DNA from: Gigantopelta aegis
Lineage: Eukaryota > Mollusca > Gastropoda > Neomphalida > Peltospiridae
DNA: 64,000 nt
Direction of reading: 5' to 3'
Assembly (NCBI RefSeq): GCF_016097555.1
Contig: NC_054702.1
Span: 110,275,014-110,339,013 of the forward strand
Position 1 is the stretch's first letter. The number at the start of each line of letters is the position of its first letter. Positions 4,847-42,600 of this stretch are shown one piece after another. The translations under genes were made by a program, and so were the position numbers. The notes below the pieces were generated by a model, which did no database searches, was not told the DNA's origin, and saw nothing but the letters and a program-made list of their open reading frames with translations.

Positions 4847-4892
4847 AAGCCACTATTATCATTATGTGACTATACTAATACAGGAACTGGAA

Positions 4893-5541
4893 CTATTGTC
4901 CGAACCGAATTGTTAACAACTACAAAAAATGACTCTCCTACCTTTAATTGCCGTTAGATTTCCTCCAAAGTTTGTTCAGACACAAATCGTAAAAAAACCC
5001 ACTACAAATTCCACACACGAGACTGCAACAATGTCGCCGATATCGCTGTTGCTGAGATTGCATAGGGAAAAATACATGCAGTTTTCTGCCGTCTGCCATG
5101 TTGCTTGTTTATGGAATACTCTTCAAGAGGGGTGAAAGCCTCCAAAGTATGTGACACAATTAATATGAAATCAATGATCTCTTGTGGTATCATTAAACAT
5201 TTTTTAATAATAATAATTAATAATATGACGTCATCACGTCTGCTTTTATATCATAACATGTTATGATGTTGTTAGATTAAGTCCTATCCTTTCACCCTCT
5301 TGGAGAATATTCCATAAAAAGTCAAAATGGCAGCTAGCACAAAATTACATGCTTTTTGCCCTATGCGCTCTCAGCGAAGTCGATATAGGTGACATAGTTA
5401 TCATCTGGTATGTGAAAACTGTGTCATTGTAGTGGGTTTTTTCAAGATTTCTGTCTGGACAAACTTTGGAGGAAATCTAACGGCAATTAAAGGTAGGAGA
5501 GTAATTTTTCGTAGTTGTTAACAATTTGGTTCGGACAATAG
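4893..5541. mobile_element. Long-TIR foldback element with CRE-like core, copy 1
   Basis: The ends are CTATTGTCCGAACC and its inverse. Each arm runs about 300 bases and contains 'ttgttaacaactac', 'cctttaattgccgttag' and 'cctccaaagtttgt' close to its terminus. Between the arms lies an AT-rich spacer with TGACGTCA (5226-5233) and the palindrome TCATAACATGTTATGA. The two arms have drifted apart toward the centre. A second copy in the other orientation lies at 21423-22070. No transposase is encoded. Confidence 0.78.
5226..5233. promoter_or_regulatory. CRE-like palindrome TGACGTCA at the foldback centre
   Basis: A full TGACGTCA followed by 'tcacgtc', then a 16-base palindrome TCATAACATGTTATGA, sits between the arms of the foldback element. 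The same motif is kept in the second copy at 21729-21736. A regulatory role is inferred from the motif only. Confidence 0.35.
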
Positions 5542-6919
5542 GTAACAGACGAGGTTTATCTTAAAGACGGTTCTACTGCGATATACCTGTTATGTGCATC
5601 AAATACATGCATGTTTCCAGAGCATACTGTGCCTTTCCCCTGTATAATTAAACTTTCTACAAACGGCTTAATTTTTGGTGAAAAACTATTTAAAACTTCT
5701 GTATCTTTTGATTTACCCATCTTGAAACTCCACTGTTTTTTAAATTAAAGTTACGCTTCAAAAAACCATAAAAATACATTGTGGTGGTTTCGAGTCAAGA
5801 GTACCAGTTGGTCTCTTTGTAACTTCCGGATGCTGTCAAAATACATGTGCATTTTTGTTCTCTGTGCTATTGAACTTAAAATAATAGACATCATTATGTT
5901 TTGAAGTGTAAACAGCCAATTTCATTAAAAAGAGCTGTATTAATGGTATAATAACAACATATTGACAGTTGTTTATTAAAGTGACACTATAAGAACTCTG
6001 TGGCACCGGGCTATCCGCATTCCTCATTTGAAGATCTAGATGTGTCCTATTTCAAAATTTGAGAGTGGAGTGGGGGGCTCGAGCCCACCTGCTTTCATAT
6101 AAAAAAAAAACCCTTAAAAGTGCTTATACATAAGAGCAAAACTTAAATTTATTTTATTCTCATGTAGTTTTAACCACACACACACACACACACACACCAC
6201 CACCCCCACCCCACCCCCCGCAAAACATTGAGGGTCTATATTTTTTTAAACAATCACAGCGCTACAATATCATAAGACCATTGGATGTAGCACTACGATA
6301 GCTTAATTTAATTTAATTTTAAAGTGCTTATATGTAAGGGCAAAACGTTTCATGTACAAGTAGATATGGACCCCCATCCCCTGCAAAATATCCTGAATCT
6401 GCCTGTCAAGGCATTTATAACAGTGAGAATCAAAGGCTATTAAGAAGCAGTAGAATAAAAGTTAACAATGAAAACGAAAACCTAAGTTTACCTAACTGTA
6501 TCTTATTATTTGTAAATACAATAATGGGAAAAACATTCATAGTGTTTGGAAATACCGATATAGATCTTAGCAAATTTGGTTTAGAGATTCATTGTAAACA
6601 GGAGAGAGAGCGAGAGCAAGCGAGAGAGAGAGAGAGTTGTTTCTAAAGAAAAGGAAAGGAATTGTTGATTAAATACATCTAAGCACCTAAGCTGTTTTTG
6701 GCACAAGTTTGGTATAGAGAGAGACACCAGTTAATCATTTCACTACTAGAAAGCAGCATGTGATCTTTTTTATGTACTTCCCCATAGACTGGACATCATA
6801 CCTCACATAGGCACTCTACTACTGAGATGCAATCCATAATGCAAATTTAATCCTTTATTATATTGACACATCCAAGTTTTAATCATCATGATTCATGACT
6901 ATCCAATCGAAAACAGTTG
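5542..6919. other. Gap between BABAM2 and DDX28, no gene seen
   Basis: AT-rich with a CA microsatellite, a GA-rich patch near 6602-6637 and no coding frame that resembles a known family. The DDX28 promoter may lie here. Confidence 0.5.
6177..6219. repeat. (CA)n microsatellite with C-rich tail
   Basis: A run of CA dinucleotides passes directly into a 'ccaccacccccacccc' tract. Simple sequence, with no gene around it. Confidence 0.85.
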
Positions 6920-10400: not shown

Positions 10401-13400
10401 AGGATGTTGCAGAGAAGTTAGCACCATACAGTGGCATCATCACACATACTGCAGTTGGCGGTAGAGGAACTAAGGTTTGTCCATATTGAATATATATTTA
10501 TCATATCAGTGCTGAGTTACGTTTTATTGTTTTGTAAAAAATAAAATTAAAGACAAGTAATAATGCAAATATCTCTCAGAAATGTTATATTCATATATTA
10601 CATGCTTGTTTCATCTAAGGGTGATATGACTAATTTCTGTTTGCAGCAAAGACTTGCTTGGTATGAATGGAAACCGATGGATGTTCTGATTTCTACCCCA
10701 GGGATTCTAAAGAAACTACTTTCTAATAGTAATATGTGACTTTTATTTTTCTCTGTCAATTTTCCATTATTTTTAAATGTTAAACTTTGTTTTGTTTAAA
10801 CCGGCCTCGGTGGCGTTGTGGTTAGGCCATCAGTGAACAGGCTGGTAGGTACTGGGTTCGGATCCCAGTCGAGGCATGGGATTGTTAATCCAGATACCGA
10901 CTCCAAACATTGAGTGAGTGCTCCGCAGGGCTCAATGGGTAGGTGTAAACTACTTGCACCGACCAGTGATCCATAACTGGTTCAACAAAGGCCATGGGTT
11001 GTGCTATCCTGCCTGTGGGAAGCGCAAATAAAAGATCCCTTGCTGATAATCAGAAAGAGCAGCCCATGAAGTGGCGACTGGGTTTCCTCTCAAAATCTGT
11101 GTGGTCCTTAACCATATGTCTGATGCCATATAACCATAAATAAAATGTGTTGAGTGCGTCGTTAAATAAAACATTTCTTTCTTTCTTGTTTTGTTTAATG
11201 ACACCACTAGAGCACATAAGTTTATCAATCATTGGCTATTGGATGTCAAACATGGTAATTTTGACGTAGTCTTTGAGAGGAAACCCACTATATTGTCCAT
11301 TAGTAGCAAGGGATCTTTTATATGCACCATCCCAAAGACAGGCTAGCACATACAATACCTTTAATGTACCAGTCATGGTGCACTTGCTGGAATGAGAAAT
11401 GTGGATCGATCCCAAACCAACCATGCATCAAGCGAGTGCTTTACCACTGGGCTACGTCCCACAACCATTATTTTAAAACCTTTTACTTTAGAAATATATC
11501 TACATATGTGTCATATCAGTTTGTATTAACTTACCATATACGCAAAAATGTTCGCGAATAAAATATACCGCGGAAATCGCGAACACGTTGACAGCATCGC
11601 GAATTTAATTACACGCGAACTTATTTCCTATTTGGTATAATTTTCATGGATACAAAAGACAAGCAGTCAGAGGTACCTGTTACATTTATACTGAGTTTCG
11701 TATGCACTTTGTCTTTACCGCCAAATTATCCACAAGGTCACGTGGTTCTGTAAACCTGCATGGTCACGTGGATTTGATCGAAGTGACACACAGTTGGGTG
11801 TAAGTCTGTTGTTGCGTAATCTCAGTTTTGTTTGTTTTCTTTGTAACCTTGAATTGAAGTTTGTGGGTACCATCAATAAAAGTTATTTCTTCTGATATTT
11901 GCGTTTTTCAATTTTCTGTATCGCATGTGCGTGTTCCTTCGATAACATGTATTATCAGACATACATACAACATTGACGTCTCGCTGACAGCATGTCCAAG
12001 TGTGTGCATGAAATAGTCATTGAAAAGAGTTTGGAAAATGAAATATGGGTAATTTTGATTTTATCGGGGGACACAGTCGTGAAAATAATTCCTCGCGAAA
12101 ATGTAAAATGAAAGCCTGATCGTGAATTATTTTAGCCGAGAAAATATTTGCGTATACGGTAGATTAGGCTTCAATAAGAAACATATTTTTGGCATGTTGT
12201 GTCTGTTCATAATAAAACCTCCAACTACACTTAAATTATTTGTAGTTGGAAATGTGTGAGAATACGTGTTACTTTAAATGTAGGAAAATATTCACTTTTG
12301 TCTTGCCTTTACAAAGTGAATATAGACAAGATATATGTGTTACATTTTTGGCATTGGAGATGGTGTAAACTTTTGTCTTAATGTTTAACATTAAAGTTTC
12401 ATAACAGTGCTCCTAAAATGATTATGATTGGTGAGACATTTAATTCCCTTAATTCTTGTTTATTAACAGAAGTCTTTAATTTTAAATATATTTTTAATAA
12501 AAAGTTTCAAATAATGACCAGAAAAATAATTGAGTTTGAAACTGGCCTAAATGTTTAGTGTTAGCGTGACTTCATTTCAAAAGTATTCTGATGGGGGTGG
12601 AGATGTATAAATCACTTTATTCAAGACTGGTGATATTGTCAGATTATTGTTATGAAATTGTATACAGTGAAACCTGTCTAAAACAGATTACACCGGGGAC
12701 CTAATATTTATTCAATTTAGACAGAATCCGGTTTTTAGAGAGTGGCGTTTTAGAATTTGGGAAACTTGGCCAGTTTTCACAGGATTCCAGTTTGTTCACG
12801 GTCCAGTTGCGACAGGTTTCACCGTGTTTGGAAGAGACAGACTGATTCTTGTACATACACTTGTTTTTGTATACCTAGATAAGATCCACCGTTCGTACCT
12901 ACAGCACATTGTCTTAGACGAGGCCGACACTTTGCTGGATGACTCGTTCAGTGATGATGTAAAAAATATTTTGAGAAAACTACAGGTGAGGAGTCCGAAG
13001 AAGAAGAAATTTTTTTTATTTAACGACGCACTCAACACTTTTTTTATTTTACGTTTATATGGTGTCAAACATATGGTTATAGACCACACAGATAATGAGA
13101 GAGGAAACCCGCTGTCGCCACTTCATAGGCTACTCTTTTCGATTAGCAGCAAGGGATCTTTTATATGCACCATCCCACAGATAGGGTAGTACATACCACG
13201 GCCTTTGATATACCAGTCGTGGTGCACTGGCTGGAATGAGAAATAGCCCAATGGGCCCACCGACGGGGTGAGGAGTCCGTTACACAACAAAACTATTTTG
13301 AAAGTTTATGGTATGTACTCTGATTAAAATTAATTAGTCCCATTCAAATGTTTAAAATATTTAAAATAATTAGGTACAGAGATTTACCTCAAACTCCTGT

Positions 13401-16400
13401 AACATGGAAATATTTAAAATAATTAGGTACAGAGATTTACCTCAAACTCCTGTAACATGGAAATATTTAAAATAATTAGGTACAGAGATTTACCTCAAAC
13501 TCCTGTAACATGGAAATATTTAAAATAATTAGGTACAGAGATTTATTTCAAACTCCTGTAACATAGAAGATAAAACAAAGCACTGGCTTAGTGAGTATTT
13601 TACATTGGGGTGTGGGGCACACTCATTCAGGTAGTCAACCACACTGTCTTGGTGGGTATTTTACATTGGGGTGTGGGGCACACTCATTCAGGTAGTCAAC
13701 CACACTGTCTTGGTGAGTATTTTACATTTGGGGTGTGGGGCACACTCATTCAAGTAGTCAACCACACTGTCTTGGTGAGTATTTTACATTGGGGTGTGGG
13801 GCACACTCATTCAGGTAGTCAACCGCACTGTCTTGGAGAGTATTTTACATTGGGGGTGGGGCACACTCATTCAGGTAGTCAACCGCACTGTCTTGGTGAG
13901 TATTTTACATTGGGGTGTGGGGCACACTCATTCAGGTAGTCCGCCGCACTGTCTTGGTGAGTATTTTACATTGGGGTGTGGGGCACACTCATTCAGGTAG
14001 TCAACCACATGGTCTTGGTGAGTATTTTACATTGGGGTGTGGGGCACACTCATTCAGGTAGTCAACCACATGGTCTTGGTGAGTATTTTACATTGGGGTG
14101 TGGGGCACACTCATTCAGGTAGTCAACCACACTGTCTTATGAGTGGTATTTTAGGGTAACAAGAAAATATAACAGGTGTGTCAAGAACAAAATTCAATGT
14201 GGTGTAAGCCAAGCATTGAAATTTCTTTACATGTATCACTGATGTTATGTTGGGGTTTTGGGGGTTTTCGTTTTCCTTTAATTGTTTTTTATCCCCAGAA
14301 ATATAGATGATATTAGGGTTGGGGAGCCCTGAACCATCACCATACATTTTTCCTTCTTTTATATTAACCACACGAGTTAAAATCAGCAGTGAAATATGTA
14401 GCATTGATGTTAACTGTATTGGATTCCAGTAGTCTGCAATTTGTTTTCTGTAAGAATATCAACAGAAGTCGAAACCCGTTAAAACCGGACCCTCACAAAA
14501 CAGGAATTGCCCCCAAATCAGACATTTTTAAAATATTAGAACAAAACAGAATTGCTTTAAACTATAACCCCTTAAATTGGACTTTGTACTTTGCCAGTTT
14601 AGAAGGGTTTATTATCAAACATTTCAGAATTCCCTATGGATCATTGTCATCTCATATTGATATAATCAGTATTTCTAGATATATATTTCTCTTTAATTTA
14701 AACCAGTATATTGTAGTAAAGAAATAAAGTTGATGTGCTGTCTTGTTTTGAATGTTATTTCCAGTTTTTGTTTTGTAGTTGTCTAAAGGTGGTGGAGGAA
14801 CCGATTCTCAGTTGGGCGTTGTCATGGATACCCAGTTTATCCTTGTCGGTGCTACTATGCCACGCAGCATTGAACAGGTCATAGGGGAAATAATTCCAGT
14901 AAGAACTTGGCTCTTCTTAATAATTTGATGTGTACTCTGCTGTATTGTCTTTAGAATCTAATTAAGCCTCGGCACATATGAATGTTCAAGTGACAATTGA
15001 TCTTGTTATAAAAATTAATTGAGAGAACTGTCAACCAGTAAATGTTATGATTAAAGATGTGAGATCCACCATAAAGCTGGGGTCCAGAAACTGCAGGTAC
15101 CCAATGAGGTCCAGAGCAATGCGGTAGTAGGGAATCGCATGGAGCAAAGATCCACCCTCCTGCCAAAAAACTATTTTTTACTATTTATTAGATATATTTT
15201 GAGGCCTCTGGTGGCACAAATGACATTAATGATACATTTCCCTGTTTTTTTCCCTGATCAATATTTTTTTAATGTTTTGATACAAGTTAGGTATCCATGA
15301 GCATTCATTTCACAATGCAATGAAAACACTAAATTCAGACAGTCCTATTGTTATATGTGTTAATGATAGAAACACTGGAAAACTAGAACGTCAGAGTGTA
15401 CTAACATTTTTAGTACAAATAATTTTTATGGACTTTAGATTTTACATCTTGAACGAGCATAAGTTTCATAGGTCTGATGGTACTTTAAAATAGAAAGCTT
15501 TTTGTTATCTTTACATTTTGCCATACTTGTAAAATATTTGAAAGCAGTGGTGAAACCCTTAGGAATGATATGTGAAGTTGGGGACAAGAAAACTTAAACT
15601 AAAATATATGGGAACCATAAAAAAGTAAATGCTTTGGGCCTAAAGTGATGGAATGAGACGCCAATCCACCCCTCCTCGCATCCTATGTGCTCGTGTTTTT
15701 CTCCATATTATGCTAATGAACCATAATAATTTTACTTACATAAGTTTATTTTATTGTTTCTGTACATCATGTTGCAAGTAATGTACTTTTAGTGTTTCTT
15801 ATTAGTTTGTTCAAATTTTCTTATTAATTATTCAATTTTACTTCTTTAGGCAGAATCCCTACAGAAAGTAACCACATCACACCTCCATTATATTATGCCT
15901 CATGTTCCACAGAAGTTTCTGAGACTTCTTCCATCTCAGAAAGCAGGTATGAAACACTTTCTTGTTTTCATTCAATAAAACAAAGCACATCTCAGTTTGT
16001 AATGTACATGTGTTGTTTACAAATATACTTGTGTTATTTACAAATGTGTTGTTTACTGAACCAAAACTGCTAGTGGTATATCAAAGTTACCGGAAATATG
16101 TCATACTGTTGAGTTATCATTTTCTTTGTTTTCTTTTGTAGAAATGATAATCAAGCTGGCAAGTGATAGTCATAAGAAAGGTGTTCCTACGATGATCTTC
16201 TGCAACAAGAGTAACACCTGTTTCTGGCTGTCGGAAACCCTCCGTGAGATGGGAGTCAACAACGTTCTCATGAACGGAGTCATGCAGGAGCAGGTACATT
16301 TTACATCTGTAAATAAGACAGGTACTATATTCTTAAAGGTTATCAGAAGTTATGGCCAAGAGTTAAAATGTTGCAGAGAAAAACATACATAGATTTGCAA

Positions 16401-21422: not shown

Positions 21423-22070
21423 CTTGTCCGAACCAAATTGTTAACAACTACGAAAAATTACTCTCCTACCTTTAATTGCCGTTAGATTTCCTCCAAAGTT
21501 TGTCCAGACACAAATCTTGAAAAAACCATTATAATGACACAGATTCCACATACCAGATGATAACTATGTTACCTATATCGACTTCGCTGAGAGCGCATAG
21601 GGCAAAATGCATGTAATTTTGAGTCAGCTGCCATTTTGACTTTTTATGGAATATTTTTCAAGAGGGGTGAAAGGATAGGATTTAATCTAACAACGTCATA
21701 ACATGTTATGATATAAAAGCAAACGTGATGACGTCATATTTTTTATTATTATTATTATTTTAATGATACCACTAGAGATCATTGATTTCATATTAATTGT
21801 GTCACATACTTTGGAGGCTTTCACCCCTCTTGAAGAGTATTCCATAAACAAGCAACATGGCAGACGGCAGAAAACTGCATGTATTTTTCCCTATGCAATC
21901 TCAGCAAAGACCATATCGGCGACATCGTTGCAGTCTCGTGTGTGGAATCTGTATATTTGTAGTGGTTTTTTTGCGATTTGTGTCTGGACAAACTTTGGAG
22001 GAAATCTAACGGCAATTAAAGGTAGGAGAGTAATTTTTTGTAGTTGTTAACAATTTAGTTCGGACAATAG
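21423..22070. mobile_element. Long-TIR foldback element with CRE-like core, copy 2
   Basis: Same ends (TTGTCCGAACCAAATTG and CGGACAATAG), arms and core TGACGTCA (21729-21736) as 4893-5541, but flipped: the arm on the left here matches the right arm of the other copy. The open frames in it are shadows of the inverted arms. Confidence 0.78.
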
Positions 22071-22701
22071 ATGGACATTTGGAAGGTTATACGCTCTCTT
22101 TACAGTCAGAGACCAAGCAATGTAATTTTCTTTCAATTGCTGCCCACCTGATACCTTTACATAGATCATTTTCGAATTCCATGATTTAAAAAAATCCACA
22201 TATTAATCACTAATACACACACTGCAGAAAGAAACCCAACAGCACCCACATTCAATTAAGCTTCACCAAACTTCGGACAGCAGAATTTTAAGGTCATGAT
22301 CGCCCACTCAGTGGTTCCGTCTTCCAGGGGCCGTTTCATACAAGACAAGTGCCCAACAAGCACCTAATAAAGTTTGTTTTGTTTCCATTAGTAACAAGGG
22401 ATCTTTTATATGCACCATACCACACTGCATGAAGAAACCCGACGGCCCTTTTAATAATGTTCTGGCTGAGATAGCAATCATAACTGTCGAAATGTCCATC
22501 TAGCTCTCAAAGGGCAGAGTATTCCGGCTATATCTCCCTCATTAACTTGACTGTTTTGAGTTTGTTGCCATTATTGTGGTGAAACAGAGCCATCTTAAAA
22601 ATCACAATTAAATATAAAATACATTTTCTCGTTGAGAATATCAGTGTCTGTATAATTCAGTTACTGAGATAGGGGAATAGGGGTTTATGGTAAGTGTACT
22701 C

Positions 22702-25779: not shown

Positions 25780-26653
25780 AAACATGGTTGAGTCTTTGTG
25801 TAGGTGCTAATCTGAACCACAAAGCCATTCTTTCAAAAATTGCACAAGACAGAGTGAAAAGGATGTTTTGACAGTCGAGAATGGTCCCATGACTTGTAGG
25901 ACTGCCACTTCCCATAACAATACATTTTTCCTGCTTTGTCAGGGGTCTACCATGGTAGAGCTTATTGTGTATTCAAGAAGTTGTGATGACATGCACTCAT
26001 AAAGAACTGTCCAAATTGTGATATCAAGTTTTTTTCCTCCAAGGCCTTACAAAAAATGTTTTTCCCAGGAACATGCCCCCAAAAACTGTAGTTGTTTTTT
26101 GCTTTTCATCATATTACTTTAAAAATTCAGGTGTGTTTTTTCTAGTTGGGGTCATGTTTCTGGAAACACATTTTTTGTTTAGTTCTAAGTTAAGCAATCT
26201 TAAAATATTATTTGACACAGAAATGCAAAGCCACTTTTATTACAATGTATGTGGACTGGTAACAGACATACGTTGCATGAAGTTCTGAATAATCATTGAA
26301 TATGATGGCACAAACATTTATGATGACTGTAGTTTTGAGTTTTTCCCATTAGTAACAATGTGATTACAATGTGGTTAGACAGATTTGCAGCTTTATTGCA
26401 TAATTCTTAGATTATCAGTAAACTATTTTTATTGAAATTTTTCTTCTTAAAAACTTTACAAGGAAGGAAATGTTTTATTTAACGATGCTCTCAACATATT
26501 TTATTTTAAAACTTTACAAATGACAGCTAGTAGATTATATACATGTATACAAGCTTACGGGTATCGATATAGCAAGTAGCATTTTACCAGGTTACGTTCA
26601 AAATGTACCATCCTTTACTTTTATATAGCATTTTAAATATGGCCACACATGAC
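25780..26653. other. TMEM160 3' flank
   Basis: Probably the 3' UTR of TMEM160 at first. No canonical AATAAA close to the stop was seen and no other coding signal. Confidence 0.45.
26463..26512 (-). mobile_element. SINE tail fragment
   Basis: 'aaggaaatgttttatttaac' followed by 'gatgctctcaaca' is the inverted 3' tail seen at 41749 and 13005. The rest of the element is absent. Confidence 0.5.
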
Positions 26654-39600: not shown

Positions 39601-42600
39601 CCGGTAATTCCGGAAACTGACGTCATTTTGTAAACACGTGCACCGATGAAACGTGAACTTTTTGATGGTTCTGTTGTTTCAAGTTTATCTCATTAACTAC
39701 ATGGCTAATACACTTTGTTTACACTAGTGGATGGTCAGTGGGTTTTTTTTTAATGCACAAAGTTTGTGTTTTTAGAAAACGACGCCAGTTTGTGTTTTTA
39801 GAAAACGACGCCCAGTGACAGACGTTGTTGGTTTTTTTAGAAAATGATTTCTGGTCTGGCAGATTAAAACAAAAACGCCATGCTAATTATATATATCGAT
39901 AGATATATTTTTTTACATTTATATATATCCAACTGCATGTGACATGTGTTAACTGTAATAGTTCCGGTATGAAGTACCGCATTATGCTAGACTGTCTCCC
40001 ATGCCACTTTGTAGTTGGATGGCTGTTACAAAGTGAAAGTCGGTACTCTATCGGTTAATCGACTAACCCGGTTAATTGCACAAAATCGAGCAGCACCGAG
40101 GGTATGCAAATAAGCGGGTTTGACTGTATTTAAAATTAGAAGCTTTTCTAAAATAAAAAATGTAAGCCTTTTGCATGGTCTAATAAGTTAAAATAATTGT
40201 ATCATAAAATAATTTGCATTAATCCAAGTTGCAGCCATTAAAGACCCTGACAGTGTAAAGGATGTTGAGACTATTACAGATGTTTTACCATTTAATTGCA
40301 CATTACTTACAACCTACTACTATTTAATTACACATTACTTACAACTTCTTTCCATTTAATTACACATTACTTACAACTTCTTACCATTTAATTACACATT
40401 ACTTACAACTGCTTACCATTTAATTACACATTATTGGTATTTGTAGATAAAGTTAAAGTTTGGTTGTTTTTAGTCAACGACACCAGTAGAGCACACTGAT
40501 TAACTAATCATCGGCTACTGGATGTCAAACGTTTGGTAATTCTGACACATAGTTTTCTATTAGAAGCATGGGATCTTGTATATACACTTTCCCAGACAGG
40601 AAAGCACATACTACAGCCTTTGACCAGTAATGTGCACTGGTTGCAAAAATAAAAAACCCAATCAGTTTAGCATAGTGTATTTGTAGTATCTGTCCAAACA
40701 GAAAATGTACGTACCTTGAAAACTAAGGTCTATGATATAAAACCAAATATATTATTAATTAAAAAAACATCCTGCTCAATATAAAAAATTGTCCATACCC
40801 TTTTAGCCTTTTCGAGGTCAATAGCGAGCCTCTCTTTTTCTTCCCTCATCTCCTGCAGCTCCTCCTGAATCTGGTAGAGTGTGGCGCCCACTCCCTCGGA
40901 CCGCAGGCTGTCCACCTCGCTGGTGAGGTCGTCCACCTGGTCAGACAGCCGCTTGACCGTCAGCTGGAGCTCCTGCTCGGTGAAGTCCCGCGCGGTCAGC
41001 TGCTTCCTGGTGTCACTCAGCTTCGTTTCCAGGTCCTCGACCTGCATCACCGACTGCTGGTGCTGCTGCTTCACTTTGTGCAGGTGAACGCGTTAAAGAT
41101 GCATAACATCATATAACAACTTGGAATTGAGTCTGGTGTAAATAAAGCACCAATACCAATTTGGTTTACACCTATGACTTTTAAATCACATCTGAAAATA
41201 TATAACTGCTGGTTTGGAATTAAAAACTCATGCAAATGAACAAATATTGGCTTTTCCTCTAAATATATACAACAAAACTATTAACATATATTTCAAAGAG
41301 TATCCCTGCACAGGGCAGTTTAAAGGGTATTTTATTGAGGTTTTAATTACTGAATCATCAACAGATGCTTCATCTATAGGACTGCCACTCCCAGGATGAT
41401 ACATCTTTCCTACACATCATTACTACTTTGTAGAAATGCCACTCCTTTCTACTTCTGGTTTAACAAATCTAAACCTACGATCATATAACAGAGTTCAGTG
41501 GACAAAATATACCTATGTGGTCCACTGTGTTAGCATTGTAATTTTCTCTGTAGTTATGTTGATATACTGAATAAGTAGAAACGAAAGGATATTTTCATCT
41601 CTGTTTGCGCCATGGCCTCGGCTGTGGGCAGATCCCCGAGATAGAGCTCGAGCTGGTCCAGCTTCTTGCGCGCCTCCAGGTGACTCTCCTTCATCTCCAG
41701 ACACTTGGACTTCCACTCTCCCAGCTCTCGCTCCTTCTCAGACAGCTGAAACAAGAAAGAAAGAAATGTTTTATTTAACGATAAACTCAACACATTTTAT
41801 TTACGGTTATATGGCATCAGACATATGGTTAAGGACCACACAGATTTTGAGAGGAAACCCGCTGTACCCACTACATGGGCTACTCTTTCCGATTAGCAGC
41901 AAGGGATCTTTTATTTGCGCTTCCTACAGGCAGGATAGCACAAACCATGACCTTTGTTGAACCAGTTATGGATCACTGATCGGTGCAAGTGGTTTACACC
42001 TACCCATTTAGCCTTGCAGAGCAGACAGCTGAAACAATGCACGCATTTCACTTCTCAATTACTGGTAATATTACACACACAATTGAAACAGTTCTGGAAC
42101 CGACTTCTCCTTTCCCAGAATAGTGCTATTTTGCCAACTGGATTAGTACAGCCATATCAATACATGTTAGGGCTAGCTCTGGGAGTGCAAAACATTTTGC
42201 CAAATTATGTCCAAAAATGCAAAACTTGGTTATTTTCCAGCAAATATCAATTATTGCATGAATTTTTTTTCGCCAAATTAAAATAAAATTTGCCAATTGT
42301 TCCTAAAATTCGCAATTGGCGAATTTGGCGAGTGGCAGAGCTAGCCCTGCATGTATATCAGAATGTTTTTACAGCAAGGGCATACAAAATCTATACCAAT
42401 CAAAATATTTGTTAATTTATTATAGGACAATGCAGTTTAAAATTTCCTCCTATTACTAATAATAAGATCTAAGTTCTGATACCAAATTAAATACCCTTTT
42501 AAAATCTGAGGTGCATTCTTATACAATTAATGTACACTATGAATGATTTACATCTTTATTGACTGAATAACAAATCTGATTTTTTAAAATATTTCTTTTA

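Follow-up and report, generated by a model that had tools for sequence, protein, structure and literature searches.

A probable SINE-mediated duplication of the exon 8 splice donor of DDX28 in the gastropod Gigantopelta aegis, likely silent

Transposable elements at splice sites

Several described systems place a transposable element on or beside a splice site. In canine merle, a tRNA-derived SINE lies in reverse orientation on an exon border of PMEL17, and the accompanying 15-bp duplication involves the original acceptor (PMC7349775). An antisense insertion of an LTR retrotransposon at a 5′ splice donor has also been described. In introners, the target duplication provides a splice site beside the inserted element (PMC9860276), and exonised antisense SINEs of the Alu type offer acceptors, which may need a point change before use (PMC7349775). 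Within 100 bp of exons, the introns of human and mouse contain fewer SINEs than expected, and the six intronic Alu insertions that one compilation lists as mutagenic are without exception antisense and located in this zone (PMC3088655).

The locus considered here is the border between exon 8 and intron 8 of a DDX28 gene, found in a 64-kb window of the Gigantopelta aegis genome (the window being the whole stretch of DNA analysed), and the case belongs to this known kind of event. Like the merle insertion, it combines a reverse and putatively tRNA-derived SINE, an exon border, a duplicated splice site and, as candidates here, cryptic sites borne by the SINE. The merle paper, however, describes a 3′ acceptor (intron 10/exon 11), mis-splicing that is driven by tail length and gives a visible phenotype (PMC7349775), whereas the site here is a 5′ donor and its duplication is probably silent. 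The LTR retrotransposon shares with it the antisense insertion at a 5′ splice donor, but that element is of the LTR type, and the passage that describes it reports eight aberrant transcripts and makes no mention of a duplicated donor. Introners resemble it in the splice site that the duplication supplies beside the element, but they create whole new introns and are thought to be mostly DNA-mobile (PMC9860276), while here the SINE appears to have copied a donor that already existed, without any need for a new intron. The insert was in fact considered as an introner and rejected, as it sits on the border of an intron that continues 1.5 kb beyond it. Lastly, the exonised Alu-type elements have donors within the SINE (PMC7349775), while the corresponding donor in DDX28 would be a duplicated host site. 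Given the scarcity of SINEs close to exons in human and mouse, the survival of the DDX28 insertion would fit with a duplication in which the donor next to the exon stayed intact. A literature search over titles and the beginnings of abstracts found no SINE described as duplicating a donor, which is no proof of absence.

The exon 8 border and the inserted SINE

The gene model comprises 14 coding exons between 7500 and 18289, all with GT-AG borders, and encodes a protein of 544 residues. Among solved structures, the closest to this protein is DDX28 (9hcc_z; phmmer E 3.4e-103, residues 4-522 of 544), the best match that is not DDX28 reaches 2.7e-48, and Pfam finds a DEAD domain (7.4e-39) and a helicase C domain. 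With a nearly full-length best match and both domains, the gene is the DDX28 orthologue, as the initial annotation had named it. Exon 8 (12879-12985, plus strand) encodes the DEAD motif VLDEADTLLDD and ends in phase 0 at CAG/GTGAGG (the slash marks the splice junction), and its partner acceptor is that of exon 9 (14779-14898, plus strand). The phmmer alignment to DDX28 spans the join of these two exons without a large insertion.

The sequence GGTGAGGAGTCCG occurs at 12985-12997 and again at 13267-13279, forming a perfect 13-bp direct repeat with a start-to-start distance of 282. The first copy holds the last base of exon 8 and the near donor GTGAGG, and the second holds the far donor in the context GGG/GTGAGG. 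No third copy of GGTGAGGAGTCCG was found on either strand of the 64-kb window, and when pairs of positions 282 apart were compared (63,500 pairs), all matches of at least 10 bases were part of this repeat. Between the copies lies a SINE of 269 bases (12998-13266) on the minus strand, antisense to DDX28, with 95% identity to a consensus that was compiled by eye from copies in the genome. Its (TTC)n tail, TTTCTTCTTCTT, is on the 12998 side, and its truncation point is at 13266. Full-length copies of the family carry GGATCGATCCCCGTCGG where this copy begins; the DDX28 copy is thus 5′-truncated, and the head, which looks tRNA-like by eye in full-length copies, is absent (tRNA calling in the window gave none). 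The initial annotation had read an inverted SINE whose target duplication fell on the end of exon 8, and each of these elements is borne out: a SINE of a genomic family lies opposite to the gene, the repeat abuts both of its ends, and exon 8 ends within the first copy of the repeat. The length of 13 bp ascribed to the duplication holds for the repeat itself and less firmly for the duplication. The element has four G's on the plus strand at its truncated end, and the two G's that precede the T in the right-hand repeat may derive from the SINE, the overlap between SINE and target being at most 2 bases; the duplication is therefore 11-13 bp long.

A genome search for the locus gave 3116 first-look candidates, of which 40 were scored, and 42 matches were listed. 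Among these listed matches in the 1.149-Gb genome (40 of 3116 scored), one covers exon 8 and most of those scored are copies of the SINE. Twenty random stretches of 10 kb contained 19 tail-bearing copies and the window contained 4; extrapolation from the random sample suggests a copy number of around 10^5 (60,000-158,000). A candidate duplication of at least 7 bp was found in 32 of the 56 tail-bearing copies examined, and one of 9-16 bp in 22 of 56, with the latter distributed as 4/4 in the window, 15/33 at loci fetched for their likeness and 3/19 in the random stretches. The family has the features expected of a SINE mobilised by a LINE: its copies are dispersed, perfect duplications flank both ends (11-13 bp at DDX28, 9-16 bp in 22 of the 56 copies but in 3 of the 19 random ones), and the element at 12998-13266 has a simple-repeat 3′ tail together with the 5′ truncation that such elements permit. 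Neither Rfam, at the gathering threshold over the 64-kb window, nor searches with the SINE patterns in viral contigs, in a collection of genome contigs and in printed papers returned any match. Matetovici et al. 2016 reportedly described mollusc SINEs with exchanged modules, and the copies in the window likewise vary in their head and tail modules.

Other repeats were noted in the window. A SINE with a different head occupies 10787-11198, in intron 7 of DDX28, with a 13-bp duplication (TTGTTTTGTTTAA), and it adjoins an older SINE with a different tail. At 26467-26519, on the minus strand, some 40 bases of tail are all that is present of another copy, which has a duplication of 12 bp (TTGTAAAGTTTT). 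Long inverted repeats (CTCTCCTACCTTTAATTGCCGTTAGATTTCC...) were seen by eye in two related stretches, each about 650 bases long (~4880-5545 and ~21425-22075, with approximate ends), which are possibly MITEs.

Two donors and a candidate exon

The initial annotation described two identical donors. They are indeed the same from -1 to +12, but they are unlike at -3/-2 (CAG/GTGAGG near, GGG/GTGAGG far), and the near donor scores higher, at 13.0 bits versus 11.0 bits under a generic matrix. Predicted pairing with a generic U1 5′ end gives -11.6 kcal/mol for the near donor versus -9.8 kcal/mol for the far one. With the same generic matrix, the near donor is the top-scoring of the 3,817 GT sites on the plus strand of the window, and the far donor ranks in the top three, with a score above those of 12 of the 13 real DDX28 donors. 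Use of the far donor would add 282 bases in frame and, in the reading frame of the gene model, 67 codons followed by a TAG at 13187-13189 (plus strand), which lies 78 nt upstream of the far junction. The stop announced by the initial annotation is thus present in an in-frame extension, but after 67 codons and not about 60. As a general rule, a stop 78 bases before a junction would expose the transcript to decay.

It is also relevant that intron 8 contains a minisatellite of about nine 61-bp units (13581-14138, plus strand), six of which carry TTG/GTGAGT (TTGGTGAGT) and form an array of donor-like sites matching U1. The far donor is therefore not the sole decoy in the intron. We also considered RNA structure that would hide the far donor and rejected it: a local hairpin was found, yet openness is alike in longer contexts. 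Predicted openness is 0.43 for the far donor versus 0.74 for the near donor in a context of 80 bases, while the near and far values are 0.39 and 0.36 in 150 bases and 0.41 and 0.41 in 300 bases. These folding predictions give no clear distinction between the two donors.

The antisense SINE may also contribute an acceptor. An AG at 13127-13128, after CCGCTGTCGCCACTTCAT, scores 10.16 under a generic matrix, above 12 of the 13 real DDX28 acceptors scored in the same way. Together with the far donor borne by the duplication, this site (...cttcatag/GCT) would delimit a hypothetical cassette exon of 139 nt at 13129-13267 on the plus strand, preceded by a mini-intron of 143 nt, and its inclusion would shift the frame. 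This AG is found in 6 of the 59 family copies that cover the site, the DDX28 copy included, in a sample partly picked for likeness to that copy. One insertion could in this way have made a complete exon from a duplicated host donor and a SINE acceptor, that is, a 139-nt poison exon that would, through its stop, tune DDX28, although we consider this improbable.

Other exon borders and competing readings

Within the same window, a second SINE (41755-42021, minus strand) shares its tail with the DDX28 copy and lies in the sense orientation of a CEP85-like gene, which was identified by Pfam (CC4_CEP85, 4.6e-13) and by a CEP85 structure (5oi7, 1.2e-07) and whose exons were joined by hand. It is flanked by 16-bp repeats (TTGTTTCAGCTGTCTG, at 42037-42022 and 41754-41739) that span the acceptor TTTCAG/CTG, with the exon starting at 41745, and its tail, TTTCTTTCTT, gives a pyrimidine tract to the downstream acceptor. 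Use of the upstream copy of the acceptor would add 283 bases with an early stop in one frame, or would shift the frame. Separately, an intron of the CEP85-like gene (41592-41078, minus strand) has the look of a U12-type AT-AC intron, starting with ATATCCTTTC and carrying TCTTTAAC before the terminal AC, as judged against the general consensus of such introns.

Elsewhere in the genome, a single narrow pattern, in which CAGGTRAG has the antisense tail after it at 14-17 bases, gave 11 matches, and the same pattern backwards gave 0. Ten of the matches were inspected; the remaining one (C5211) is similar to L049 in its match and could represent the second haplotype of that locus. L049 (G000:C3 near 71131750) is a probable case of donor duplication, in which a 12-bp repeat, CAGCAAACAGGT, lies across the donor of a probable exon with an open frame and an acceptor ahead, although its protein finds only weak coiled-coil matches. 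There, the SINE tail replaces +3 to +6, which results in GTAAGG at the near copy as against GTGTGC at the far one. L054 (G000:C7 near 29584185), on the opposite strand, has a sense SINE before an EF-hand exon (EF-hand_7, 1.6e-20) and an 8-bp repeat, GCAGGTAG, across the acceptor of that exon. L051, with a 15-bp repeat and an open frame, is a candidate for an exon border case, and L056 has an open frame, where a repeat was looked for and none found. Two further loci (L053 and L058) were rejected as border cases, having repeats and no exon, as were four others (L050, L052, L055 and L057) that are without the family tail or without a convincing repeat. When 22 duplications were scanned for splice motifs, a donor-like motif was found in DDX28 alone and acceptor-like motifs in L003, L014 and L035 (sense) and in L019 (antisense), while at the CEP85-like locus the scan gave a chance antisense match and its pattern missed the real acceptor. 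Inspection of seven copies outside the window (L003, L008, L014, L016, L024, L025 and L035) found no clear coding exon at the duplication.

The initial annotation had called such an insertion rare, which is not supported in view of the acceptor case in the same window, the probable case at L049 and the further one at L054. If the genome has 200,000-400,000 exon borders, as we assumed, 228-456 insertions spanning a border would be expected without selection, and 36-72 of these would have a readable duplication if just 3 of 19 copies keep one. Given these expectations and the cases found, such events recur, and the term is unwarranted.

From the structure of the DDX28 locus, we infer an insertion event, and it is very probable that a LINE-mobilised SINE copied the donor and that the near donor is used, with the SINE spliced out within intron 8. 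The SINE would have been moved by LINE machinery and integrated antisense through target-primed reverse transcription, the cuts in the two strands being staggered by 11-13 bp and straddling the border of exon 8 and intron 8. Gap repair would then have copied the donor, plus the last exon base if all 13 bp of the repeat were duplicated. The gene would survive because, on the side of the exon-side copy, no part of the exon is lost and the donor is both intact and strong. Splicing would use the near donor (12986), and the SINE and the far donor at 13268 would go out within intron 8. The far donor would act as a strong decoy and leak little if at all, and the transcripts made with it would, by their stop, be open to nonsense-mediated decay. 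This reading agrees with the perfect repeat on both ends of the SINE, with the overlap of up to 2 bases at the truncated end, with the duplications of 9-16 bp in 22 of the 56 tail-bearing copies, with the top score of the near donor, with the DDX28 alignment across the join of exons 8 and 9 and with the similar events at other exon borders of the same genome. Weighing against it are the strength of the far donor, through which leakage could exceed what we assume, the finding of duplications of at least 9 bp in just 3 of the 19 random copies, and the generic nature of the splice matrices and of the U1 sequence.

The strength of the far donor is also a ground for an unlikely alternative, in which the far donor or the 139-nt exon enters some transcripts, introduces a premature stop and lowers or regulates the output of DDX28. 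The far donor (11.0 bits) and the acceptor at 13129 (10.16) each outscore 12 of 13 real sites in the gene, and a mini-intron of 143 nt with an exon of 139 nt would be of ordinary size, but the near donor has the better score and sits directly at the real exon, the scores come from generic matrices, and intron 8 offers many other donor-like sites. In another and very unlikely reading, the SINE or its LINE partner would favour splice sites, with the pyrimidine tail priming at polypyrimidine tracts and exon borders being hit above chance. Of the four copies with a tail in the window, two sit on exon borders (P 0.0005-0.005, assuming 50-150 borders), but one of the two was picked for its border position, and for the other three copies the chance is 0.03-0.08. 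In 21 of 22 copies the duplication starts with T or C, but this pyrimidine is confounded with the tail. A pyrimidine tract derived from the tail is retained at the CEP85-like and L054 insertions. We looked genome-wide for an excess of one acceptor motif after the tail, and found none: TTGCAG followed the tail 106 times and the rearranged control TTGGAC 85 times, close to their background in 200 kb (82 and 63; Fisher P 0.91). It is hardly credible, finally, that the direct repeat is not a target-site duplication and that it arose next to a SINE already in place, through duplication of the local sequence or through misassembly. A haplotype free of the SINE could have escaped the search, with 40 of 3116 candidates scored, but the two copies of the repeat meet the ends of the SINE without a gap, and their length is in keeping with the duplications at other SINE copies.

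The duplication of the DDX28 donor by the SINE is thus very probably real and probably silent. When a target duplication falls on a splice site, it sets up a natural experiment in which two copies of one signal compete in a single gene. Merle is the mirror case at an acceptor, with a phenotype. Since this window holds one case at a donor and one at an acceptor, and the genome two more candidates, a genome-wide study could address how often such insertions are tolerated and whether new exons arise from them.
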